Source of the DNA: Sulfitobacter donghicola DSW-25 = KCTC 12864 = JCM 14565
Lineage (GTDB): Bacteria > Pseudomonadota > Alphaproteobacteria > Rhodobacterales > Rhodobacteraceae
Assembly (NCBI RefSeq): GCF_000622405.1
Contig: NZ_JASF01000005.1
Span: forward strand, 3,100,001 to 3,164,000
DNA length: 64,000 nucleotides
Direction of reading: 5' to 3'
Shown here: piece after piece, positions 35,593 to 46,630 of the stretch
Layout of the letters: each line of letters begins with the position of its first letter
Position numbering within the stretch: the first letter of the stretch is position 1
The notes under the pieces: generated by a model
The model's database searches: none
The model's input: only the letters and a program-made list of their open reading frames with translations
What the model was told of the DNA's origin: nothing
Position numbers and translations under genes: made by a program

Positions 35593-35666
35593 GCGGGTAT
35601 GGTGAAAAGGTATCACGGCAGCTTCCCAAGCTTTAGTTACGAGTTCGATTCTCGTTACCCGCTCCA
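35593..35666 (+). tRNA. tRNA-Gly (anticodon CCC), satellite integration site
   Basis: A 74-base tRNA with acceptor arms GCGGGTA/TACCCGC, discriminator T and encoded CCA. The anticodon loop is TTCCCAA and the T-arm is ACGAG-TTCGATT-CTCGT. The anticodon stem includes one mismatch and one G-T pair. The 3' half from 35628 is identical to a copy at 46581, so this gene was the integration target and was rebuilt by the element. Confidence 0.93.
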
Positions 35667-35677
35667 GAGCCCCCTTT
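35628..35677 (+). repeat. attL: left 50-bp attachment repeat
   Basis: Fifty bases from the tRNA-Gly anticodon loop through the CCA end and 11 bases beyond are identical to 46581-46630. The bases flanking each copy differ, so the repeat ends exactly there. Confidence 0.93.
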
Positions 35678-35689
35678 AAGGTACTGTTA

Positions 35690-35704
35690 TTAAGTTGTTT
35701 TTAA
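35690..35704 (+). promoter_or_regulatory. CtrA-like site just inside attL
   Basis: TTAA-GTTGTTT-TTAA matches TTAA-N7-TTAA, 13 bp inside the element and about 130 bp upstream of the TPR-like gene. Chance occurrence is quite possible (roughly 0.4-1 expected per window of this size). Confidence 0.3.
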
Positions 35705-35835
35705 CACCCTCCACATTCAACCCCTCAAACTACCCCGCATAGATTCTGTTACATGATGTGCTGCACTGTGACTGAAAATTATGGTGTCAATTCGCTTCAC
35801 ACCACCATATTCTGTTCCGCTAAGGGGGCCTCACC

Positions 35836-36483
35836 ATGTTTTCATTCTTCAAAAAAAAGACCGAACCAAGTGGTGGCATTTTAGGGACATTTGACCTTTG
35901 GGAGTGGTGGCAAACCGCCTTCACTGAAAACGAAAGAGCGCGTATCTTAGAAAAGTACAGACCTTTTGGCGTGGATGCTCCTTCCCCGCTGACAGAGCTA
36001 ACTACAAATGCACGCTCCCCACGAAGCCCGCTGTCTTCAATGGCTATGTGGTTTAACAATAGTGAGGACTTCAAACTTGCGTTAAAAATTATGGAGAAAG
36101 CCGAGACATATCCAACGGCCAACCTAAACATCGAAGATATTCATTTTGGATGCCAAGAACGCATAAAGTTTTACTATCGATGGCGAGACGAGCATGATGG
36201 TGCGCTATCGAAAGCAATCGAAGCTTGCAAAGAGCAAGTAGCCCTTGCCCCTCAAACCGCTAGGATGTTTGCAACAGCGGAAAGATGGGGAGCAACAGAA
36301 GACCGTGAGGCTTGGATTCCAAGGCACTATGGTTACGATCAACTTGCTATAATTTATGAAAAGCAGGGCAAGTTTAAAGAGGCGATAGAACTGTGTGAAA
36401 CAGGCCGCTCGCAAGGTTGGGCCAATGAGTTCGACAAGAGACTGGTTAGATTGCGCAAGAAGTTAAAAAAACAACAAGGCTAA
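35836..36483 (+). CDS. TPR-like accessory protein of the satellite
   Basis: A 215-residue soluble protein on the plus strand, opposite to the head genes and next to attL, the usual place for accessory cargo. The N-terminus MFSFFKKKTEPSGGILGTFD is followed by a helical part and a tetratricopeptide-like repeat near the end (HYGYDQLAIIYEKQGKFKEA, IELCETGRSQGW). It ends KKLKKQQG, 4 bp overlapping the convergent portal gene. No enzyme motif is visible. Roles such as anti-phage defence or helper interference are possible only by position. A hairpin-forming sequence (TGGTGT/ACACCA, 35782-35804) lies in its upstream region. Confidence 0.7.
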   Translation: MFSFFKKKTEPSGGILGTFDLWEWWQTAFTENERARILEKYRPFGVDAPSPLTELTTNARSPRSPLSSMAMWFNNSEDFKLALKIMEKAETYPTANLNIEDIHFGCQERIKFYYRWRDEHDGALSKAIEACKEQVALAPQTARMFATAERWGATEDREAWIPRHYGYDQLAIIYEKQGKFKEAIELCETGRSQGWANEFDKRLVRLRKKLKKQQG

Positions 36484-37541
36484 CCTTCCCAATCCACAAG
36501 CTGCATTGCCTTGTCAGCGTCCACGCCAGCTTCTTTGGCCAACGCCAGTGCTTGAATGATCCCTGTCAGCGCCCTCGCCCTGCCGCCAGCATCAAACGCT
36601 TGTAGGGGCCGCATAACGTCGATCTTAACGGGGCTGCCCAGCTTGGTTGCGGCTTCCTCTGCCAACAAGGCACAGATTGGCTGCAAGGTCCATTGTGCAA
36701 GGTGGCGTTGCGCCTCTCTAACCATTGGCCCAGTTGTTGCGGCATTGGTTAGACCGGGCAGAACCCCAAAGGCGTGATTGATCGCATCCCTAGCGCTTTC
36801 CAGCGTTTGCAGTGACATGGTTTTTTGCATGTCGGGCGATACGTCAGACGCTTTCCAATCCTGTGACGGTGCTGGCCCACCAGCCGCAGTGACTTGAACA
36901 GATTCACGCAATAGAACCCGCCCCCGTTTGCCACGGAACCCACGCGCCAGCGTATCCATGTCAGTGTCAGCAGCTTCGGGAAATGGCACAATTTGCGACC
37001 CAAGCGGCATAGCGTCATAGGCTTGACCCAACGCCGTTTCCAGCGTTGCCAGCATGTCACCCGTTAGGCTTGCTCGGCGTAATGGTGCAGAGCCAAAGTA
37101 AGGCTGGCCCAGATCGGCCCCCGTCACGATATGCAACACCTCACCTGCAAGAGCAGTTACCGCCTGCCCGCCCCCTGTATCTGGCAAGGTCAATTGATAA
37201 GCGCGGGGTTTGCCGTTGCGTGTCGAGATTACCCAATCAGATGCAGGCACCAGCCCGCCTTCGGTTATCAGCGCAACAAACTCACCACGCAAGGCCAGAG
37301 AACGCCCAAGCAATGCCATTGTGCGGCGGTCTAGCATGTCGGCACCATCAACGTCAGCAAGCGCCATAGCGCCTTCCCAAAGGCTAATCGCGCCTTGCAC
37401 TGTAGCAGTTAATTCGGCAATGCCCGTTTGCCCTGTGATCCAGCTAGATCGCGCTGCCATAATATCGGCGGTATAGCCCGCGCCTGTTAAGCTGCGTTGC
37501 TCTTCTTTGTCGGCTCGTTTGAACCAATCAAGAATTTTCAT
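36480..37541 (-). CDS. Phage portal protein (HK97 family)
   Basis: A 353-residue portal that would form the dodecameric DNA-entry ring at one capsid vertex. It starts MKILDWFKRADKEEQRSLTG, a common opening in HK97-type portals. The core shows VLHIVTGADLGQPYFGSAPL, DMLATLETALGQAYDAMPLG, the wing/stem region RGFRGKRGRVLLRESVQV and INHAFGVLPGLTNAATTG. At 353 residues it is on the short side for the family. It is last in the head operon and overlaps the connector gene by 14 bp. Confidence 0.85.
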   Translation of the reverse strand: MKILDWFKRADKEEQRSLTGAGYTADIMAARSSWITGQTGIAELTATVQGAISLWEGAMALADVDGADMLDRRTMALLGRSLALRGEFVALITEGGLVPASDWVISTRNGKPRAYQLTLPDTGGGQAVTALAGEVLHIVTGADLGQPYFGSAPLRRASLTGDMLATLETALGQAYDAMPLGSQIVPFPEAADTDMDTLARGFRGKRGRVLLRESVQVTAAGGPAPSQDWKASDVSPDMQKTMSLQTLESARDAINHAFGVLPGLTNAATTGPMVREAQRHLAQWTLQPICALLAEEAATKLGSPVKIDVMRPLQAFDAGGRARALTGIIQALALAKEAGVDADKAMQLVDWEG

Positions 37542-38109
37542 CGTTCACCCCCAAGCGGCGATATGGGCGCAGCAGATCAGCCGCGCCGGAATTGTGAATG
37601 GCTCTTGCCATGTGGTTAGGATCAAGCCGGATGTTTTCAGAAATTTGCCCAACGTCGATTGAGTAGGAACGCGCACCAGCAGGCGCAGCCGAGGTTGCTG
37701 CCATGTATTCAGCCAAACGGCGATAAGCCTCTAGAACCGCAGCGGGTGGCGCGTCAGTGCTGCCCACAGTTGCCGTGATCCTGTATTGGCATTTATGGGC
37801 AAGCAGCATTCCTGTAGGCGTTTTACGGTATGGCGATGCCACCCAATCTTCGGCTTCATAGTCCCATACCTCCCGCGCCATGCTCGATACAGGGCAAAGT
37901 GTTGGCGTCCAAACGGCACCAGCCCCGTTGCGATAGCCGCTACCATTCACCAGCCAAACCACTTGCCGTTCGGCCCAGCGATAGCGAATGAATGCCTCTA
38001 TACGCTGCCACACCAAAGCAGGTTCAAGAGCCGCAGCAGCGGTTGATAGATCATCAGGCGGTGCCGGATATGCAGCAGGTTCGGCTTCATCAATATGCAA
38101 AAGCGACAT
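37528..38109 (-). CDS. Probable head-tail connector (gp6-like adaptor)
   Basis: A 193-residue protein between protease and portal genes. The pattern WQRIEAFIRYRWAERQVVWL, then TPTLCPVSSMAREVWDYEAE and CQYRITATVGSTDAPPAAVL, followed by AVLEAYRRLAEYMAAT and a C-terminal SGAADLLRPYRRLGV, resembles gp6-like head-tail connector proteins of Rhodobacterales phages. Such proteins bind under the portal and create the tail docking site. A satellite using helper tails would need this interface. Assignment is moderate. Confidence 0.55.
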   Translation of the reverse strand: MSLLHIDEAEPAAYPAPPDDLSTAAAALEPALVWQRIEAFIRYRWAERQVVWLVNGSGYRNGAGAVWTPTLCPVSSMAREVWDYEAEDWVASPYRKTPTGMLLAHKCQYRITATVGSTDAPPAAVLEAYRRLAEYMAATSAAPAGARSYSIDVGQISENIRLDPNHMARAIHNSGAADLLRPYRRLGVNDENS

Positions 38110-38724
38110 TTACAGCCTCCACTTATTCAAGGGCTGTATAGGAACCGCCAACCCACTATCGGTCAGGTTCCAATTGCGTTCTTCAATTTCGGTTTCATGG
38201 TAGGCAGGTCGCGTGACAAAAGAGAGTTCGTAAAGCAGCGCTGCCCAGATGTTGCGAATGATCGCAGTGCCTTCGGTGGGGTCTTCATCCTCTACCGTTT
38301 CAGCATTTTTAACTGCGCGGGGCGGTGGAATGCGAAAGCCGGGGCTAATCCCTTGAACAAGGCCAGCGGCATAGGCGTTAAAGAAGTCTTGCGCCCAAGA
38401 TGTTTGCTGCACCTCTTGCGTTATGATTGCTTCAAAAGTCAGCGCGTCTTCACTGTCTGTCAGGATCAGCGTTTTAGCTTTGCGGCTTGCAAGCGGCTTG
38501 TCATAAGAATGACCTAGCAGAATGTGAATGTCTTCGTCTGGGCGGTCTACGCGATAGGCGAACGCCTTTGGCCTGATTACTTCTTTGCGCGGACGCCCAC
38601 CGTTGCGGCCCCCATCACTTAGGACGGCACGTCTGCCATAGGGGAACCGCCCGCTAAGACGGCGGGAACCATCGCCCGCCGCTCGCAGTTCAAGCCCAGC
38701 ATCATCTGAAAAGCTGGTAAACAT
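38110..38724 (-). CDS. HK97-family prohead protease
   Basis: A 204-residue U35-type serine protease that matures the capsid shell by removing the delta domain of the capsid protein. The catalytic His is in HILLGHSYDKPLASRKAKTL and the Ser is in LLYELSFVTRPAYHETEIE. FEAIITQEVQQTSWAQDFFN lies between them. The capsid gene 3 bp upstream encodes a matching N-terminal coiled-coil delta domain. Confidence 0.85.
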   Translation of the reverse strand: MFTSFSDDAGLELRAAGDGSRRLSGRFPYGRRAVLSDGGRNGGRPRKEVIRPKAFAYRVDRPDEDIHILLGHSYDKPLASRKAKTLILTDSEDALTFEAIITQEVQQTSWAQDFFNAYAAGLVQGISPGFRIPPPRAVKNAETVEDEDPTEGTAIIRNIWAALLYELSFVTRPAYHETEIEERNWNLTDSGLAVPIQPLNKWRL

Positions 38725-38727
38725 GAC

Positions 38728-39963
38728 TTATCCGATGTTCGACATAATGCGCGTTTGCAGACCACGCGCCACAGTAACGTCAGCAGTGATAAGGCCCGTT
38801 AGGCGCAGCCCTCCTGATTGTGCATCGCTATACACGTCACGGATAAGGTCCAGACCGCCCCAGAGGCCGACGAATGCGGGGGCCACACCATTGACGGTTG
38901 TGGTCAGCAGCGCCGTGCCAGCGGTAAGTTGGTTCCCCAAAACGATGTTACCCGCGCCGATATGCTTGGCCAATCGGTCCCATTCTGTAATGCCGCTGCC
39001 AGCGTCCCAAATTGCATCGTCCAGATCGCCCCAGATCGCTGGGGAGATACCCAGTTTAACTTGGGAAGGGTCTGTGATTGCATTGGCCTGCATGAAGGCA
39101 ATCACTTCGGCCTTGAATGCGGTCCAAGTCGGAGCAGCGGCAGTCATATCGGTATCAACAATGCCATAGGTCGCAGCACCAGAGATAACGCCTAGCGGTT
39201 CACCAGCCGACCCCGAACCAAGTAGAATTGCGCGGTCCAGTTCGGTGCCAATGGCCGCCGACATATCCCGACGAATTGCAGCCTCAAGGCCAGCACCGGA
39301 TTGCTTCAAAGCCTTACGGCTAATCCGCATGTGAGCGCCAAGCGTTTGATCAGGAGACAGGGTAGTCTCACCCGTTTGAAAAGCGGTATCATTCGGCACG
39401 TTGCCGCCTTCTGTAGCAGCCCAGCCCGCAGTTGCGCCAGCAGTGGCTACGGGGAACGCTTCGGAACCCTGAGCGATGCTGACAGACGAAACGCCAAGAC
39501 GTGCCGCAACAGATGCAGGAAACAGGCGGTCAATAATGGGCCGCGTATTGATTGGGCTAGGTGTATCGGTCGAAACTGTCGAACGCTGTTCTAGCACTTC
39601 AAAAGGAACCGGAACGCCCCGGAACCCACCAGCACCACGCATTTCTTGAACCACCTCGGCAGTCGCACCATCAAGTGCGCGGCCTTCATCCAGAGCCAAT
39701 GCAACTTGGCGCAGTTCAAAACGGCCAATCAGATCGGCATATTCACGATCAGAACGGGTTTCTAGTTCGCCCTTGGCTTCGCTTCGCTGCTCATCTTCTG
39801 CAATTAAAGCAGCACGGTAGCGCGTTTCGTTCGTGCGATACTCCCCATCAAGATCACCAAGGCTTCGGGTTTCATCTTCGGTCGGTTTTTCTTTGCCAAC
39901 AAGCGCTGCCAACTCTTGGCGAATTTCAGACTGTCGGCGGCTAATTTTGGTACTATCAAGCAT
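38728..39963 (-). CDS. HK97-fold major capsid protein
   Basis: A 411-residue shell protein. Residues 1 to about 100 form a charged coiled-coil delta domain (ISRRQSEIRQELAALVGKEK onward) that the protease would remove near GGFRGVPVPFEVL. The mature HK97 fold follows: RPIIDRLFPASVAARLGVSS, GWAATEGGNVPNDTAFQTGE, MRISRKALKQSGAGLEAAIR, ELDRAILLGSGSAGEPLGVI and WGGLDLIRDVYSDAQSGGLR. Having its own capsid and protease is what separates this element from classic capsid-hijacking satellites. Confidence 0.9.
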   Translation of the reverse strand: MLDSTKISRRQSEIRQELAALVGKEKPTEDETRSLGDLDGEYRTNETRYRAALIAEDEQRSEAKGELETRSDREYADLIGRFELRQVALALDEGRALDGATAEVVQEMRGAGGFRGVPVPFEVLEQRSTVSTDTPSPINTRPIIDRLFPASVAARLGVSSVSIAQGSEAFPVATAGATAGWAATEGGNVPNDTAFQTGETTLSPDQTLGAHMRISRKALKQSGAGLEAAIRRDMSAAIGTELDRAILLGSGSAGEPLGVISGAATYGIVDTDMTAAAPTWTAFKAEVIAFMQANAITDPSQVKLGISPAIWGDLDDAIWDAGSGITEWDRLAKHIGAGNIVLGNQLTAGTALLTTTVNGVAPAFVGLWGGLDLIRDVYSDAQSGGLRLTGLITADVTVARGLQTRIMSNIG

Positions 39964-40015
39964 GTATTTTTCACCTAGCTAGGTTTAAGTTATGATGCTT
40001 AACTCTATCAAATTT

Positions 40016-40333
40016 CTAGGTTTTATTAAAATGACCGTCCTTTAGCAAAGTCTTCCATCTTTCCCGTTCGGGGTCTGGTTTCCCAAGCCCAATTTCAATG
40101 CGTGTTTTACGGCTATGACATGGGGTGCAAAGTGTCTGCAAATTTGAAAGTTCATACGATAAATCAGGTGCTTGCCTAACAGGTTTAATGTGATCTACTT
40201 CTAAGCGTACACCTCGCGTCCCACATTCTACGCACTTCCAGCCGTCACGGTCTTTTGCTTGTTTGCGCACCACCTGCCAACGCTTGGAGCCTGTGACCTT
40301 TGCGCTATGTCGGTCATAGCGCCTCACACCCAT
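40016..40333 (-). CDS. HNH endonuclease of the packaging module
   Basis: A 105-residue HNH nuclease. The zinc ligands are WKCVECGTRG and LCTPCHSRKT, and the HNH core is VRLEVDHIKPVRQAPDLSY followed by the LSNLQ asparagine. Small HNH proteins beside the terminase stimulate site-specific cos cleavage in HK97-type packaging, so a cos mechanism is plausible here. The start overlaps the terminase end by 10 bp. Confidence 0.87.
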   Translation of the reverse strand: MGVRRYDRHSAKVTGSKRWQVVRKQAKDRDGWKCVECGTRGVRLEVDHIKPVRQAPDLSYELSNLQTLCTPCHSRKTRIEIGLGKPDPERERWKTLLKDGHFNKT

Positions 40334-41853
40334 TGCGCCACACGGCTTTTGCGGCTTGGTCGGTTCACCATTCGCGCCCCTTCGGCAACGGCGATGACAG
40401 ATGCGGCAGCCGCATCAATCCTGCCCAGTGATCGGGCTTTGGCTAGTTTATGATTGCCAGCAGGATCAACCAACGTGATTGCATCGCCAAAAGCAGATCG
40501 CAGCAATAAGCTAGGTTGCGTTTTCACCATGCCTTCAAACAATGCTCTACGGAACCGCTCTATGTCTTCGGCACCATCACGCCAGCCAAAGCCCCGCCAG
40601 ATAAACGGCACCCGTTCCAATCCAGCCGCCCGCATTGCTTCGGTAAATTCTGCATGTCGGAACCTATCGCCAACAATGCAGGCAATGCCCTGCCCGTCAG
40701 TCATTGCCACCACGTCAGCCAACCAACGCCCCACTGGAACCGTTGTATCGCCCATTGTGGTCAGTTCGCCCCGCTCTTGCATTTCTGAGTAACGCCCTGA
40801 CACCCCATCAGCCGCGCCACGATCAGCAAGTCCAGGCTTGCAAGGGAAAGTGCCAATCGCTTCAAGTCGCCCTGTCTGGGGCCAATATAGGGCCGCTGCT
40901 GACATGCTACGCGACCCGCCAAGATCAACGCCCAGAACGCACGGCCCATCGCGGGGCGGCAGACCATCTGGCGCGACTTCGGCGGCAAGGTATTCATCAA
41001 TCGTGACCAGCATAGAACGGTCTTCGGTGCTGACACGTTCGTTGCGGTTTAGGTTCTTAAAGCTGGAAAGCGCAGAGCCGCCACGTGCAATGGCACGGGA
41101 CGCTTGCGCCACCAGCCATTCCGCAGTTGATCCAATGCCCTCTTTTGATCCGGGGTTTGCTATAAGCAAGCTTTCAAGATCATCCGCAGGCAATCCAAAA
41201 GCTGGCCTATGTTCCTGCACATATGTTCCGGGGGGCGGTTCATCTAACCAGCGGGAAAAGGTGTTTGCATCATCAGGCGCACTGGTCGAGATAATCAGCG
41301 CTCGCCCGTCACGTTTACCAAGCCCCGACAAAATGGCGTTTTCCAAGTTGTCGCCCTTGTCACGATCCCATGCGGCCCGTTCGTCCAGTATCGCCAATGT
41401 AGGCGCACCGCCTAGAATAGACTTACCATCGGCAGCAATACATCGCGCAAGGCCCCCACCATTGCCGTTGTATTCAATTTCCAGCTTGGAGCCACGCCGA
41501 ATTGTGAACAGTTCCTGTTCTGCATCAGGCAAGCCCTCGACAAAGCCGACAATAAATTGGAATGCAATTTTTGCTTGGTCACGGTTTCGAGCCGCGAGAA
41601 TAACTTCCCGCTTTGGCTGGTCTGTCAGTTCCCCCATTACGTCAGCAAGAGCAAGCCCAGCCGACAATGCTGTTTTTCCGTTCCCCCTACCTATGCTAAG
41701 ACAGCCAATCATTACGCTAGGGGCAAGCGCACCGCAGATAAATTGCCGCTGATACGAGGCCAGTTTAACGGGTTTTCCCGCCATTTTACCTTCGGGAATA
41801 ATTAGTTTTTCTAGAAATGATATTGCTGCTAGAGAACGAACAGAGGCTGACAT
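40324..41853 (-). CDS. Terminase large subunit
   Basis: A 509-residue packaging motor. The N-terminal ATPase has SYQRQFICGALAPS, Walker A LSIGRGNGKTALSAGLALAD, Walker B LAILDERAAWDRDKGDN and coupling motif IISTSAPDDANTF. The C-terminal RNase H-like nuclease starts with CVLGVDLGGSRSMSAAALYW and includes ACIVGDRFRHAEFTEAMRAA and a final Asp in LGRIDAAAASVIAVAEG. No small subunit gene is recognised next to it, which is unusual and may mean a very diverged partner or use of the helper's. Confidence 0.88.
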   Translation of the reverse strand: MSASVRSLAAISFLEKLIIPEGKMAGKPVKLASYQRQFICGALAPSVMIGCLSIGRGNGKTALSAGLALADVMGELTDQPKREVILAARNRDQAKIAFQFIVGFVEGLPDAEQELFTIRRGSKLEIEYNGNGGGLARCIAADGKSILGGAPTLAILDERAAWDRDKGDNLENAILSGLGKRDGRALIISTSAPDDANTFSRWLDEPPPGTYVQEHRPAFGLPADDLESLLIANPGSKEGIGSTAEWLVAQASRAIARGGSALSSFKNLNRNERVSTEDRSMLVTIDEYLAAEVAPDGLPPRDGPCVLGVDLGGSRSMSAAALYWPQTGRLEAIGTFPCKPGLADRGAADGVSGRYSEMQERGELTTMGDTTVPVGRWLADVVAMTDGQGIACIVGDRFRHAEFTEAMRAAGLERVPFIWRGFGWRDGAEDIERFRRALFEGMVKTQPSLLLRSAFGDAITLVDPAGNHKLAKARSLGRIDAAAASVIAVAEGARMVNRPSRKSRVAQWV

Positions 41854-41879
41854 TTTAAACCCATTAAGTGAGAATGATT

Positions 41880-42164
41880 ATGCGAAAAATATTTGTTGCG
41901 GCGGTTTGCATTGCCCAATTCGCCCCGATAGCTGCAAGTGCAGAGCGCGCAAGTTCCGCAGAACTTTGCAAGAAATTTGGGCAGACCGTAGTCCCAATGA
42001 CGGAGCTCATCAAAGACGCTGGCATGTTTGCTACGGTTATTCGGCTCTTTTCAAAAGATGAATCACACAGACAAGGAGCCGAGGATTTAGCAGCCGAGCT
42101 TACGGCTGGTATGAAGGAATTTAATTCAAGTTTCAGTGAAATAGCAGAGATGTGCCGTGGTTGA
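41880..42164 (+). CDS. Small exported protein encoded against the head operon
   Basis: A 94-residue protein with a convincing signal peptide (MRKIFVAAVCIAQFAPIAAS, cleavage near ASA). I chose the ATG at 41880; GTG 41868 and ATG 41874 are in frame just upstream. The short mature domain is helical with two cysteines (AELCKKFGQTVVP and EIAEMCRG). It is on the plus strand between large terminase and head closure genes, which are on the minus strand. Such isolated exported proteins in prophages are often lysogeny-expressed morons, for example superinfection exclusion; that role is inference. Confidence 0.6.
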   Translation: MRKIFVAAVCIAQFAPIAASAERASSAELCKKFGQTVVPMTELIKDAGMFATVIRLFSKDESHRQGAEDLAAELTAGMKEFNSSFSEIAEMCRG

Positions 42165-42237
42165 TTTTTTGGGAGAGAGAAAGGAACAGTAAGACCCCCG
42201 AAAGGCCCCCTATTTAGAAGCAATGGCATTGGAACCA

Positions 42238-42321
42238 TCATACTAAGGCCATTAGGCCGATTGCTATGTCGCACCAAACCCAGATTGTAGTAGCTGCCAA
42301 CGCCCATTCAATCACCAGCAT
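42238..42321 (-). CDS. Putative 27-residue membrane micropeptide
   Basis: Directly after the head-closure gene a reading frame begins in a TGATG stop-start overlap (ATG at 42321) and encodes 27 residues: MLVIEWALAATTIWVW followed by CDIAIGLMALV. It is a single hydrophobic helix. The coupling supports translation, but the length makes the call uncertain. A holin-like or regulatory peptide is conceivable. Confidence 0.35.
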   Translation of the reverse strand: MLVIEWALAATTIWVWCDIAIGLMALV

Positions 42322-42683
42322 CAGCCCCTACTCACGATAAGGATATAGCCTACAGGGTCACCAGCGGCTGGCACTGGATCAACCTGCCTAACAGATAGGA
42401 ATGGCCCACCATCTATGCGCACCTTGTTGCCAAGATCAGGCGCGATGCTTGGCACCCCACATTGCACGGTCAGGTCGCTTGATCGGACGCTAGAACCATC
42501 TGCATATTCTAGACCAACCCCCTGCACTACCGCCGTCACTGTCTCAAAGACTGTGCTAGTTGTTGGTGGGTCAAATTCAGTCGCACCGGGCATTGTCGTG
42601 GTGCGTCCTATCTCCACATTGCCCTGCCCGTATTGGGCCAGCAAGCGGCGGTGCGATGCTTCTATGCGGTCATAATAATTCAT
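42321..42683 (-). CDS. Probable head closure/neck protein
   Basis: A 120-residue protein, MNYYDRIEASHRRLLAQYGQ, then VEIGRTTTMPGATEFDPPTT, VVQGVGLEYADGSSV, LTVQCGVPSIAPDLGNKVRI and RQVDPVPAAGDPVGYILIV. This is the pattern of small neck/head-closure proteins (Hc1-like) in siphophages. It would seal the filled capsid and present the docking surface for a tail. In this element it is the first gene after the replication block, separated from the other connector. Confidence 0.6.
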   Translation of the reverse strand: MNYYDRIEASHRRLLAQYGQGNVEIGRTTTMPGATEFDPPTTSTVFETVTAVVQGVGLEYADGSSVRSSDLTVQCGVPSIAPDLGNKVRIDGGPFLSVRQVDPVPAAGDPVGYILIVSRG

Positions 42684-42778
42684 GTTGTAAGTCTAGCATT
42701 TATGCATAAGCACCGCGAATTAGCGGAAACAACGCCCCCACCTCGCTTGTTTACTAATTTTGGCCGCTCTCATCACCA

Positions 42779-42889
42779 CCACCACCATCTACCCCCTAAA
42801 GGGGGGGGTAGTGGTGGGGTCGGTAAGAGTAAGTGAGGTTTTCCCCACTACCCACCTTCCCCCACCTTGGTTTTAGCGTGGTGGGGGTG
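42779..42889. repeat. Nested G/C-rich inverted repeats, candidate replication origin
   Basis: Between the RepA-like and head-closure genes. Arm pairs: CTACCCCC (42789-42796) with GGGGGTAG (42804-42811), extended outward through ACCACC/GGTGGT-type pairing after one bulged base; CCACTACCC (42845-42853) with GGGTAGTGG (42806-42814); and CCCCCACC (42859-42866) with GGTGGGGG (42880-42887). No T-run follows any of them, so a simple terminator is unlikely. G-runs could also fold into a quadruplex. Confidence 0.5.
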
Positions 42890-44152
42890 CTAGGTTTCAT
42901 TCACCCATTCACCAACAATTAGGCACGGATATTCTCTACCCTTACCGCTATCTTTGCGCTTTTCGATTATAAGTGCACCGCTAGCCTGCCAAGCACTAAG
43001 CATCTGCTGGATACGGCGTTTGTCATTATCCGTATCCAGATTAAGAACATCGGCAACGGATTTACCTACCCAATTGTTCGCCTGTGCACTCTGCCGTGGA
43101 TCTTCTAGCATATCTATGGCCCTTTGAACTGCTAAGGTATCCGCAACAGATATGCCGTCAAAAGCATCAGGTGGCGTGTAGCGTTCAACAGTTGCAACCC
43201 AATCACCATTCCCAAGTTCAATGCCAACAGTCCGGTGCCATTCCGCCCCGCTACCAGTGGAGTAGTTCGGTTTATCTTGCGTCACTGTGAAGTAGGTTGC
43301 GCGGTCAGACACCACATCAACACCAATTTCCTTCTTTTTCTTGCTGCTAGCCTTATTCAGAACGCGCCCATCCCTAACAGCGTTTAGCAGAGAGCTACCG
43401 CCACGCCCATCTTCGGATGAAAGTTCTTGCCCATTACCTTTCCGCGTATGATGGACAAGCTCTATTGAGATGTTGCATTCGTCAGCAATCCTCGCCCATT
43501 CAGTCGCGACAGCATCAATCGCGCTGTTGTCGTTTTCTGTTACGCGGTGAGATTTAACAAATGGATCAATTGTTAAATGGTCGATCCCATGCTCCTTGAT
43601 ATGCTTAATCAATCCATCCCGCATTGGCGTATTGATCGCAATTTCCCCACGCACCTGTTTTGCCATGCAGAGTTCACAATCGCGACCGTCAAGAAAGAAC
43701 CGCCCCTTAATCTCACTGGGGTTGATCTCATGATGAAGCATTGCTGCTGCCATTCGACGGTTCAATTCGTCCATTGGCTCTTCAAGGTTAATCAACCAGA
43801 CCTTTAGTGGTGCTGGCACCGTTACGTCTAGCAAAGCGCGTCCGGTAGCCATTGCCAAAGCCTCGACCACCACCAAAGAAGATTTACCCACTGCACCGGG
43901 CGCAACTGTTGCGGATGCCGTCTTGCGCTGAAGGTGATTGCCATATGTCCATGGTCGCGTTGGTTGTGTCGCTGGGTCAAGCCAGACAAATGGCGTAGGT
44001 TCTCGCATGGCAGGCTGAGGGGCAAGCGTTGCCGCCCGCCCCCCGTTAATTACTCGCATTCCGGAATTAGCAGCCGCAACAGGATTGCTTTTGGGAAGCC
44101 TTTCCAAAGCAGAGTCATCGCCGCCGAAAAATGCCGCTACAGCATCATCCAT
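42890..44152 (-). CDS. RepA-like RecA-fold ATPase (replication helicase)
   Basis: A 420-residue protein with a RecA-like ATPase core: Walker A TVAPGAVGKSSLVVVEALAM, Walker B-like HGIDHLTIDPFVKSHRVTEN and the following region ISIELVHHTRKGNGQELSSE. The C-terminal part looks like a winged helix (NNWVGKSVADVLNLDTDNDK, IQQMLSAWQASGALIIEK). This layout fits hexameric RepA-type helicases of plasmids and satellites. It would drive autonomous replication of the excised element, probably from the repeat block just downstream. Confidence 0.72.
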   Translation of the reverse strand: MDDAVAAFFGGDDSALERLPKSNPVAAANSGMRVINGGRAATLAPQPAMREPTPFVWLDPATQPTRPWTYGNHLQRKTASATVAPGAVGKSSLVVVEALAMATGRALLDVTVPAPLKVWLINLEEPMDELNRRMAAAMLHHEINPSEIKGRFFLDGRDCELCMAKQVRGEIAINTPMRDGLIKHIKEHGIDHLTIDPFVKSHRVTENDNSAIDAVATEWARIADECNISIELVHHTRKGNGQELSSEDGRGGSSLLNAVRDGRVLNKASSKKKKEIGVDVVSDRATYFTVTQDKPNYSTGSGAEWHRTVGIELGNGDWVATVERYTPPDAFDGISVADTLAVQRAIDMLEDPRQSAQANNWVGKSVADVLNLDTDNDKRRIQQMLSAWQASGALIIEKRKDSGKGREYPCLIVGEWVNET

Positions 44153-44718
44153 TAAACAGCCTCCCGAATGCCAACTACAAGTGGCAATTCAAGCGGCCAA
44201 TCATCTGACCACAGGATCAATTTCAGCTTTTGGGCCATGTCGATTTGCATTGACGCCAATCCCGCCGCAGACAAGTCTCCGGCTTGAACCGCCACCAGTG
44301 CGGCCCGCTGCATGGTGTCGATCATGCCATCTAGACCGCTCTTCCCTTTCCCCGCATACCGTAAGTTGCCGTCAGCGCCCCTTGTGATCTTGTGCAGGGT
44401 TTCCGTAGCCCATGTGTCGATTTCATCATCTTCCGCAACGACAAACACATCCGACAAAATGACAGAAATTTCCTCAAATGCCGGGTGATAGCGATAAAAT
44501 TCCGGCTGCAATTCGGCTTCTGGGCCAACTTTTTCGCGCCATTTTGTAATCCGTTCGAGCCAGCTTGTCACCTTGGCACGGGTTGCATCCACACGCAGCG
44601 CAAGTTCGGTGTTTACCTCATTTGCTTCGGTTTGTTCGTTTGTGGTAGTGTCATGATGTCCATAGCTACCATTATTGCCCTCCGGTTCGCGCTGGGGGGC
44701 TTTTTTGCTATCGTCCAT
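44152..44718 (-). CDS. Unknown protein between the AlpA-like and RepA-like genes
   Basis: A 188-residue soluble protein with a polar, disordered-looking N-terminus (MDDSKKAPQREPEGNNGSYG) and a helical body (TSWLERITKWREKVGPEAEL, YHPAFEEISVILSDVFVVAE, MIDTMQRAALVAVQAGDLSA). It shares single bases with both neighbours, so all three early genes are coupled. Not recognised. Position suggests a replication accessory protein or regulator. Confidence 0.65.
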   Translation of the reverse strand: MDDSKKAPQREPEGNNGSYGHHDTTTNEQTEANEVNTELALRVDATRAKVTSWLERITKWREKVGPEAELQPEFYRYHPAFEEISVILSDVFVVAEDDEIDTWATETLHKITRGADGNLRYAGKGKSGLDGMIDTMQRAALVAVQAGDLSAAGLASMQIDMAQKLKLILWSDDWPLELPLVVGIREAV

Positions 44719-44912
44719 TAAGCAGCCTCCCCTTTACTTTCGATCCAGCTTGATAGGTCAGAAGATCGCCAATAATTTCTTGTTTTTATTTTGATCGGCT
44801 TTGGGAAGTCTAGTTTTTGGTCTTGAAGCCAGCGCCAGATTGTCATGCTAGTAACGCCACCCATTGCGGATCGGACTTCGGCTTGAGTAAGTAGTTTATT
44901 TTCAGACTGCAT
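44718..44912 (-). CDS. AlpA-family regulator/excisionase
   Basis: A 64-residue MerR-like helix-turn-helix protein: LLTQAEVRSAMGGVTSMTIW, RWLQDQKLDFPKPIKIKTRN and YWRSSDLSSWIESKGEAA. AlpA proteins activate integrase or excision in P4-like elements and are the typical regulator of Gram-negative PICIs. It is the first gene of the replication operon. Upstream are CTAGG-containing repeats (45032-45055). Confidence 0.82.
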   Translation of the reverse strand: MQSENKLLTQAEVRSAMGGVTSMTIWRWLQDQKLDFPKPIKIKTRNYWRSSDLSSWIESKGEAA

Positions 44913-45031
44913 AATTGCGCCCTCATACTAAAGTTTGCTAGGAAAGAAGGCAGGACGATGCTTGATCTATGCTACCGCCCCTAGGTCCACGGCAATGGAT
45001 TTAGGGGCAGCCACGCTCCCAGATTAACGCG

Positions 45032-45055
45032 ACTAGGAACAATTTATCACCTAGT
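45032..45055. promoter_or_regulatory. Inverted repeat between integrase and AlpA-like genes
   Basis: ACTAGG-N12-CCTAGT is a perfect 6-bp inverted repeat. The half-site CTAGGAA recurs at 44939-44945 upstream of the AlpA-like gene. It is a candidate binding site for AlpA or the integrase; no test of this is possible here. Confidence 0.35.
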
Positions 45056-45190
45056 ATAACAGCGGCCAAATGAGCGACTTCAGTAGCATTATAAGAGTTC
45101 GATCTTTGATCCCGTGTTTTGATTTGGCTGGAAATGTACCATAAAATTATAGGTAAAGAATCTCTTATCATGAATTTTTGTGGGGTATTG

Positions 45191-46453
45191 CTACTTAACA
45201 ATAAATGAATGCCATTCTTCCATCATGTCCCGCCGCTTTTCTACCATTTGAGTTCTTGAGTAAGCTTTATGAACGTGGTTTCCGATATTGTGCCAAAGCG
45301 CCATTTCAGAAAGATTGTCTTCATAGTCGCTCACTTCATTCGCCCATGTTTTGAACGTAGTGCGTAACCCATGAGGGACAGCGGGTTTCTTATTTTGTGG
45401 GTCGAGATAGCCCACTCCATCCTTTTTTAACTTAGCCTCATGAATGCGTTTCATTACAGCAGAAAGGGAAGCGTCACTAAGGCACCCTCCCCTCGGTGCT
45501 GGAAACACTAGGTTATTGTTGCCATGTGAATCCGACCTTTTGACAAGTTCGATCATAGCATCTGTTAAGGGAACAGTTCGGGGGTTATCCCCCGCTTTGA
45601 TTTTGGAAAACTTGCGGTCCGGTTGGATCGTCCAGACCTTTCCTTCAAAATCAAACTCGTCCCAAGTAGCGCAGCGTACTGCACCTGTTCTGGTGGCTGT
45701 TAGGGTTTGGAATTGCAAAGCTAACGATCCATTGCCGTCACGACCACATAGATCGGCCCACCATTGAGATATTTCTGAAAGCCTAATTGAACCGTAATGG
45801 CTAGTTTTTGGTATGGTTTTTAGTATGTGTCCAAGATTGCTGTCACGTGAAACTGGGTTTGCTTTTTCACGGTAGCCTTGAGCTGCTGAATAATCAAAAA
45901 TGTCTTTGAGTTGTTGCTTCAACTTCTCAGCCGTAGAGTTTTTTGAATGCCATATGGGCAGCAAGGTGTTGCCAACTTCAGCAGTTGATATGTCGTTAAC
46001 TGTCTTTGACCCAAGCAAGGGAAAGACATATTGTTTAAGCCCCTCTCCCCAGCTTTTTCGGTACTTCTCAGATTGAAGCCTTTGGCGTTTTATCGGTAAA
46101 AATTCTTCATAAACCTCGATGAGGGTTTTTCCAAAGAAATTGGCGTGCTGTAATGCCAGCCACGCGTCTTTGCGTTTTTGTACTGGGTCTATCCCTTCGC
46201 GAATATCCTTACGTATCGCTCTAGCTTCTTCTCTTGCGGCTTTAAGCGAAACTTCTGGGTAAGCACCAAGACCAATTTCACGCCTTTTGCCACCATAGCT
46301 TACGATCATCAGCCATGATCGCGCATTGCTTGGGGTGATTTGTATGTGCAATCCCGCCACCCCTCCTACAGCAAAGTGACTTGGGTTTCTCTCATGTGTT
46401 GCTTGCAGTCGATTAATCTCAAGTTGTGTTAACTCTTTTGCTACCTTTGGCAT
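45191..46453 (-). CDS. int: P4-type tyrosine integrase
   Basis: A 420-residue site-specific recombinase that would integrate and excise the element at tRNA-Gly. The N-terminal arm-binding domain (VGGVAGLHIQITPSNARSWL, REIGLGAYPEVSLKAAREEA) is typical of P4/DUF4102 integrases. Catalytic residues are Arg in TATRTGAVRCATWDEFDFEG, the His-x-x-Arg of PHGLRTTFKTWANE, a second His in LWHNIGNHVHKAYSR, and the tyrosine of that last motif. It reads inward from the right end; the intact tRNA is at the far left end. The coding sequence looks more A/T-rich than the host genes. Confidence 0.92.
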   Translation of the reverse strand: MPKVAKELTQLEINRLQATHERNPSHFAVGGVAGLHIQITPSNARSWLMIVSYGGKRREIGLGAYPEVSLKAAREEARAIRKDIREGIDPVQKRKDAWLALQHANFFGKTLIEVYEEFLPIKRQRLQSEKYRKSWGEGLKQYVFPLLGSKTVNDISTAEVGNTLLPIWHSKNSTAEKLKQQLKDIFDYSAAQGYREKANPVSRDSNLGHILKTIPKTSHYGSIRLSEISQWWADLCGRDGNGSLALQFQTLTATRTGAVRCATWDEFDFEGKVWTIQPDRKFSKIKAGDNPRTVPLTDAMIELVKRSDSHGNNNLVFPAPRGGCLSDASLSAVMKRIHEAKLKKDGVGYLDPQNKKPAVPHGLRTTFKTWANEVSDYEDNLSEMALWHNIGNHVHKAYSRTQMVEKRRDMMEEWHSFIVK

Positions 46454-46580
46454 AAACCCTCATCCTACCCCACATAAAATATGTTAAAAATAGTATGATA
46501 GTGTTATGTAACTATGCAAGCCATTTTGAGAGAAATCTAATTTAGTAATTTAAATCAATCAATTGAGCGTAAAATTCAGG

Positions 46581-46630
46581 AAGCTTTAGTTACGAGTTCG
46601 ATTCTCGTTACCCGCTCCAGAGCCCCCTTT
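46581..46630 (+). repeat. attR: right 50-bp attachment repeat
   Basis: Exact copy of 35628-35677, the displaced 3' half of tRNA-Gly with 11 bases beyond the CCA. No 5' half precedes it, so it is not a gene. It marks the right end of the element. Confidence 0.93.

Follow-up and report, generated by a model that had tools for sequence, protein, structure and literature searches.

A stretch of 64,000 nucleotides from Sulfitobacter donghicola DSW-25 (contig NZ_JASF01000005.1, positions 3,100,001 to 3,164,000; referred to here as the window) contains an integrated element at positions 35628-46630, which is bounded by exact 50-bp repeats at a tRNA-Gly gene. This element is very probably a phage satellite that builds a small head of its own and relies on a helper for the tail alone, and presumably for lysis as well. 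Its sequence relatives point to a large family that is centred on the Rhodobacterales and stands apart from known phages. A more far-reaching proposal is made with slightly less than even confidence, namely that the family is an independent lineage of capsid-forming satellites that did not arise from the phage-inducible chromosomal islands (PICIs), is centred on the Rhodobacterales, has been overlooked as broken 10-kb prophages, packages its DNA without a terminase small subunit (TerS) into T=3-sized heads, and inherits its neck as one unit that matches tails and is exchanged separately from the capsid.

Boundaries and gene content of the element

Repeat searches and joining of the flanks placed the att repeats at 35628-35677 on the tRNA side and 46581-46630 on the integrase side. 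The two copies are identical over 50 bp, which is far beyond chance, and lie 10,953 bp apart from start to start. The left copy overlaps the 3' end of the gene at which the element is integrated, a tRNA-Gly(CCC) gene on the plus strand (35593-35666, called by ARAGORN), and in-script joining of the flanks restored the tRNA-Gly sequence whole, followed by a Na+/H+ exchanger gene. When 58 same-genus genomes were searched, an insert-free site was found in one listed genome (G055), with the tRNA 3' end about 170 bp from the exchanger gene. An att-bounded element at tRNA-Gly, as claimed in a preliminary description of this DNA, is confirmed.

Apart from a TPR gene and a 98-aa open reading frame (ORF) on the plus strand, all genes of the element lie on the minus strand. 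These comprise a 188-aa protein, a head-tail adaptor and the gene set named in the preliminary description, which was present by profile matches. In the head module, the HK97-type major capsid protein (38728-39963) matches PF05065 (9.8e-14) and TIGR01554 (2.6e-11), the prohead protease (38110-38724) matches PF04586 (1.5e-14), and the portal protein (36480-37541) matches PF04860 at 4.7e-9, just under the curated cut-off. The terminase large subunit (TerL; 40324-41853) matches phrog_9 (7e-55) and the solved terminase 6z6d (1e-38), the HNH endonuclease (40016-40333) matches PF01844 (7.6e-12) and phrog_144 (2e-25), and the head closure protein Hc1 (42321-42683) matches phrog_161 (1e-10). The set also includes a tyrosine integrase (45191-46453; PF13356 5e-18, PF22022 6e-17, PF00589 6e-10), a RepA-like AAA ATPase that is presumed to be a replication helicase (42890-44152; PF13481 8.5e-37, phrog_906 7e-32) and an AlpA-like helix-turn-helix regulator or excisionase (44718-44912; phrog_66 6.6e-7, PF05930 0.007, below the cut-off). 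Tail and lysis genes were looked for as evidence against a satellite, and no tail or lysis family was matched by the ORFs of the element in the Pfam, PHROG and NCBIfam profile scans. A search of the PDB for a satellite capsid returned 8gta at ~1e-6 and one poor match; the structure model of the capsid had a mean confidence score (pLDDT) of 52.9 and was therefore kept out of the fold search.

The head genes are under purifying selection. In comparison with L024, in which TerL is 96% identical, the ratio of nonsynonymous to synonymous substitution (dN/dS) was 0.03-0.06 for six head genes and 0.22 for hc1, and in comparison with L026 and L027 it was 0.06-0.19 for five head genes and 0.23 for hc1, with no computable value for HNH; these ratios are rough because several dS values exceed 1. 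The fastest evolving of the head genes compared was hc1, the product of which is expected to face the tail.

Satellite-sized relatives across the Rhodobacterales

Relatives were bounded by direct repeats that either overlapped a tRNA gene or were at least 25 bp long. Of 91 loci examined (L103-L193), 51 were bounded in this way and, with the window, gave 52 elements, of which 51 are distinct because one genome was included twice (L103 and L157); L162, L163 and L175 are 90-95% identical to one another over parts of their length. The 40 unbounded loci were truncated at the edge of a contig, lacked a clear repeat or, in the case of L151 only, fell under a 9-kb floor. From repeat to repeat, the 52 elements measure 9,588-11,731 bp, with a mean of 10,465 bp and a standard deviation (SD) of 482 bp. 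Repeats were first sought 7-17 kb apart and elements below 9 kb were dropped, by which only L151 was lost (8,062 bp, with a 14-bp repeat at tRNA-Ser). Widening the search to 2.5-30 kb gave the same 51 relatives plus L151, in fetched loci of at most ~21 kb, which are too short for both boundaries of any longer element to be recovered. Among the 51 repeats, twelve are shorter than 18 bp, and the remaining 39 gave the same length range (mean 10,480, SD 495). Random placement of tRNAs in the same loci produced a qualifying repeat in 6 of 315 trials; about one boundary among the 63 tRNA-bearing loci may be due to chance. The relatives are integrated at tRNA genes in 47 cases, with no tRNA detected in the other 4, and make use of twelve tRNA types (Phe, Arg, Glu, Cys, Ser, Asn, Lys, Ala, Thr, Leu, Met and Asp).

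Gene presence was scored by six-frame profile searches (E <= 1e-4), since codon-scored ORF calling missed several real window genes. TerL, HNH, capsid, protease and portal were found in all 52 elements and an integrase in 50, with AlpA and RepA of the window types in 10 and 18, respectively. Gene order is the same in 51 of the 52 by frame start, and in L128 as well by tblastn position; that it differs from the usual phage head order, as suggested beforehand, was borne out. No frame of at least 480 aa, and none of tape-measure size, was found in the 52 elements outside the head cassette, integrase and replication genes, and the 38 unmatched frames of this length all overlap those genes (33 on the opposite strand and 5 as long protease frames). 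Accessory genes were represented by 121 proteins, one per cluster with a representative of at least 85 aa, shorter proteins and the window's own being left out. These matched 114 PHROG families, the commonest 25 of which include no tail or lysis family, and 3 PADLOC defence families, with one protein each. Three distant capsid relatives that were fetched (E ~1e-45 to 1e-48) also have 46-47 bp repeats 10.4-10.8 kb apart and the same gene order.

The head proteins were compared with 50,697 phage records by tblastn. The capsid matched 11 of these at 24-30% identity along roughly half of the protein, with none covering 80%; TerL matched 159, all at less than 60%, the best-scoring HK97-like phages being 29% identical; and Hc1 matched 5 (31-32%). 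The portal, the window adaptor and the alternative adaptor described below had no match, and no full phage carrying this head module was found at tblastn sensitivity. A comparison with Escherichia coli at the DNA level likewise gave no match.

These results bear on the possibility that the element is a decayed deletion derivative of a full-length siphoprophage, which has retained the integrase and the head module. HK97-type head genes next to a prophage-like integrase at a tRNA gene would be expected from such a remnant, and full-length prophage relatives were looked for on this account. The bounded relatives, in loci of the size given above, are not full-length: 51 other elements of ~10.5 kb contain this cassette, 47 of them at tRNA genes for twelve amino acids, and the distant relatives fall within the same range. 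In the loci fetched, no full-length prophage combining tail genes with a capsid and portal of more than 60% identity was seen. Purifying selection on the head genes and the lack of a phage record with this module also speak against decay. Derivation by deletion was rejected on the size and architecture of the relatives, and is considered highly improbable.

Searches of viral collections with the capsid and terminase returned relatives mostly on satellite-sized contigs, and only the partial or <60% matches given above from phage records. A TerL search of IMG/VR identified 141 relatives, of which 80 were kept, and 76 of these are on contigs of less than 15 kb; in the other four, on contigs of 16.5, 21.1, 26.8 and 53.0 kb, only the cassette was looked at. 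The order terL-HNH-capsid is kept in all 80, and terL-HNH-capsid-protease-portal in all 72 in which the five genes were found. A capsid profile scan of IMG/VR gave at least 570 confirmed relatives, of which 80 were kept. Among these, full-length matches of at least 50% identity are all on contigs of at most 18.3 kb, and the weakest three are 34% identical over a partial capsid, with one on a 65.7-kb contig. A further capsid search scored 7,995 candidates, 2,801 of which matched at E <= 1e-3, and among the 120 matches listed many are on contigs near 10 kb.

On genome contigs, 203 relatives were confirmed, and the hosts of the 80 kept are mostly Rhodobacterales, with Rhizobiales, sphingomonads and Hyphomonas/Ponticaulis also represented. 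Outlying cases are a single Pusillimonas and a short contig recorded under an Oceanospirillaceae metagenome-assembled genome, and a member was also found within a 1.58-Mb Pseudorhodobacter plasmid record. A strong capsid-profile match (E <= 4.6e-96) was obtained in 39 of 394 genomes (393 genera) of the bacterial family, with any match at 1e-3 in 56. In a phylum-wide sample, 5 of 398 genomes had a strong match (the own genome, three of the same family and one of the same class) and 13 had any match. TerL at 60% identity or more was found in 11 of 145 relatives' genomes, the own genome included, with any match in 18. One genome (G046) holds two members, L108 and L110, at tRNA-Asn and tRNA-Phe; members therefore do not strictly exclude one another.

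Exact terminal overlaps were found in 2 of 236 loci and give apparent circles of 10,118 bp (L129) and 9,970 bp (L199). Both are the size of an excised form, which suggests excision or packaging. Such circular forms in assemblies, taken with the head and packaging set, would also fit a minimal or tailless phage that is autonomous and multiplies without a helper. The portal, adaptor and stopper are, however, parts for docking a tail, and no lysis gene was recognised, which leaves an autonomous phage with an extremely small chance. The circular contigs also bear on a domesticated host particle, akin to a gene transfer agent or a bacteriocin, as opposed to a mobile satellite. Although purifying selection would be expected of such a particle, it is hardly credible in view of the integrase, the exact att repeats, the many integration sites, the patchy presence across family genomes and the apparent circles.

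The neck, the proposed helper and packaging

The preliminary description included a connector, which proved weak by sequence and gained support at the level of fold. The product of 37528-38109, a head-tail adaptor of the 'conn' family, matches phrog_442 at only 0.0047. Its structure model (pLDDT 87.7) has 6tba and 6toa, neck chains of a gene transfer agent, as best PDB matches (TM-score 0.42-0.44), followed by neck chains of phage 7-7-1 and T5, with TM-scores of 0.42-0.48 overall. At these modest scores, the fold supports a putative adaptor.

Exactly one adaptor is present in each of the 52 elements, and the two types never occur together. The window type is found in 27, between protease and portal, and an alternative adaptor (TIGR02215/phrog_442 type) in 25, upstream of terL and ~4.6 kb from the portal. 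Head closure follows the same division: Hc1 of the phrog_161 type occurs only alongside the window-type adaptor (17 of 27), and head closure of the phrog_25 type only alongside the alternative adaptor (8 of 25, one of which, in L123, is at an unexpected position and may be a chance match), with other types or no assignment in the remaining elements. In two elements, L131 and L139, a protein of the tail-completion/Neck1 type (phrog_169) is additionally encoded upstream of terL; it is considered with the helper below.

Maximum likelihood trees were constructed for the capsid (51 rows), TerL (52), portal (51) and protease (33), with rows missed by the ORF step left out. The adaptor type changes 8 times on the capsid tree, with at least 7 of these changes forced by well supported branches, 5 times on the TerL tree, twice on the protease tree and once on the portal tree, where the single change has 100/100 support. 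Because the alternative adaptor sits far from the portal, adjacency alone is insufficient to account for the linkage of portal and adaptor. The simplest reading is that the two must fit each other and are exchanged only as a set while capsids swap. The neck thus resembles a docking module that can be swapped, with portal, adaptor and head closure type staying together and the capsid being exchanged.

As to the source of tails, neither a PF10145 tape measure nor a second satellite TerL was found in the own genome, and searches with PF03354 and PF03237 for TerL and PF04860 for the portal returned the element and one other cluster only. The second portal and TerL, with a protease-like ORF, lie together at 150-152 kb of contig C5 (L271, C5:141000-160500), in a cluster that we take to be a gene transfer agent. 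It is conceivable that the satellite takes its tails from this host agent and not from a phage, given that the families tried gave no portal or TerL in the host beyond the element and this cluster, that the window adaptor fold is nearest to a solved gene transfer agent adaptor, that the alternative adaptor family matches an adaptor-like ORF of the cluster at 4e-17, and that the portal and protease profiles match it weakly (1e-4 and 6e-7). Profiles of the window-type adaptor, Hc1 and capsid, on the other hand, do not match the cluster, the naming of which is tentative. A member of the family also occurs in Pusillimonas, a betaproteobacterium, and gene transfer agents are not known to occur there. 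In PMC11389934, EcCIEDL933, the characterised capsid-forming PICI (cf-PICI), is described as mobilised by phages that are not native to its strain, HK106 and HK446. Taken together, tails from a gene transfer agent are improbable. For the satellite with a phage helper that is preferred here, the families tried identify no helper in the own genome, and the helper is therefore probably an outside phage.

In the mechanism proposed, infection by a helper, or its induction, would trigger excision under the control of AlpA, and the RepA-like ATPase would replicate the excised circle from an origin near repA. TerL and HNH would then package one ~10.9 kb unit into the element's own small prohead, which the protease would mature, and the portal, adaptor and Hc1 would close the filled head. 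A siphophage-type tail of the helper would dock onto the closed head, and helper lysis would release the particles. Head size was estimated by scaling volume as T^1.5 from HK97, which has a T=7 capsid and a record length of 39.7 kb; by this scaling T=3 could hold ~11 kb and T=4 ~17 kb. The genome of P4, at 11.6 kb, is housed in a T=4 head, so that T=3 and T=4 are both possible for the element. Packaging is the main gap in this mechanism, because no TerS was recognised among the window ORFs scanned or the relatives' candidate proteins, even at E up to 1, with the sole exception of a match of the window HNH protein to phrog_4581.

The lack of a recognised TerS is one of several points that weigh against a satellite of this kind, as packaging of one's own usually needs this subunit; a divergent TerS in the window element is possible. 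The failure of the four families PF03354, PF03237, PF04860 and PF10145 to identify a resident helper is another. Remote phage relatives of the neck proteins do exist, as shown by the PHROG families matched, and the phrog_169-type protein of L131 and L139 lies one step further towards the tail. A rare tail-like gene in some relative, beyond the commonest 25 PHROG families, is also possible.

Other features of the element include the TPR protein (35836-36483, plus strand, 215 aa; PF13428 4e-5, phrog_22434 1.5e-13), which is probable cargo, and the 188-aa protein (44152-44718), to which the Pfam, PHROG and NCBIfam scans assigned no family. Between repA and hc1, at 42735-42889, lies a group of inverted and direct repeats rich in G/C that is a candidate replication origin or packaging site. 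The 98-aa ORF (41868-42164), opposite in strand to the head genes, has a secretion-signal-like N-terminus and no significant family match, and among 80 viral loci tblastn matched only an identical copy in L023. A role as exported cargo, for example as a superinfection-exclusion protein, is a guess.

Comparison with known satellites and phages

The open-licence literature, as far as its passages were available, contains no report of such an element in this bacterial group, and the passages of virome literature on Sinorhizobium and Paracoccus do not describe it. The earlier suggestion of an undescribed family fits with this. The families or folds of the capsid, TerL and neck are shared with HK97-like siphophages and gene transfer agents, which have tails. 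The element differs from temperate phages in having no recognised tail module or lysis genes, and from classical PICIs, which redirect helper capsids, in encoding its own head module.

Several satellites outside this group are built in a comparable way. The Mulch and Flayer satellites of Streptomyces have their own capsid and packaging genes without PICI homology, as stated in PMC10690885, but have virulent helpers, terminal repeats and hosts in the Actinomycetota. The cf-PISP TG54 of Vibrio crassostreae has head genes without a tail and a capsid clade apart from phages, and differs in its size of 15.8 kb, its plasmid maintenance genes, a tyrosine recombinase other than an integrase and its restriction to Vibrio (PMC13230959). 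The 13.8-kb circle pCF11 of Lacticaseibacillus paracasei is similar in encoding primase, head closure, HNH, TerL, portal, capsid, connector and integrase genes with no annotated tail. Its gene order (Hc-HNH-TerS-TerL-portal-capsid-connector) is different, and a P27-family TerS is present. This record (L273, NZ_CP094949.1) was read as a Firmicutes cf-PICI and may be an excised satellite that entered the database under the name of a plasmid. Separately, the Roseomonas mucosa plasmid pTT14-8 (L274; CP099479.1, 1-16883) was seen to be a 16.9-kb circle with annotated portal, protease, capsid, HNH and TerL, no annotated tail or integrase, and an IS21 transposase among the head genes, and is possibly a head-only satellite-plasmid in an alphaproteobacterium.

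If the element is a satellite with its own head and stolen tails, such satellites would be common in this bacterial family (39 of 394 genomes with a strong capsid match), a group in which the literature passages available do not place them. The Rhodobacter family is abundant in coastal waters. That portal, adaptor and stopper stay linked although the capsid is freely exchanged would provide a concrete, testable rule for the matching of borrowed tails, and prophage callers may be labelling a functional class of elements as incomplete phages.

The closest comparison is with the cf-PICIs. An integrase, AlpA and a replication gene are typical of PICIs, and all three are present in the element. As with cf-PICIs of the EcCIEDL933 type, it has its own capsid, protease, portal, connectors, HNH and TerL, and no recognised tail or lysis genes. 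By the definition in PMC10690885, cf-PICIs have their own head genes and take tails from a helper, and three cf-PICI capsid clades are stated in PMC11389934. In contrast, the members of the present family are smaller, at 9.6-11.7 kb against a stated cf-PICI average of 14 kb, and have alphaproteobacterial hosts, a class not among the main cf-PICI host groups listed (PMC10803314). The element is set apart here on published descriptions of cf-PICIs. It was not filed as a cf-PICI because TerS was tested for and not found. Of the earlier view of a cf-PICI-like satellite in the Rhodobacterales, the own-head, tail-less content therefore stands, whereas membership in the cf-PICIs proper, given the missing TerS and smaller size, was not established. 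The best reading of these genes is that the element would work like a cf-PICI, with its smaller size, missing TerS and gene order marking a separate alphaproteobacterial lineage.

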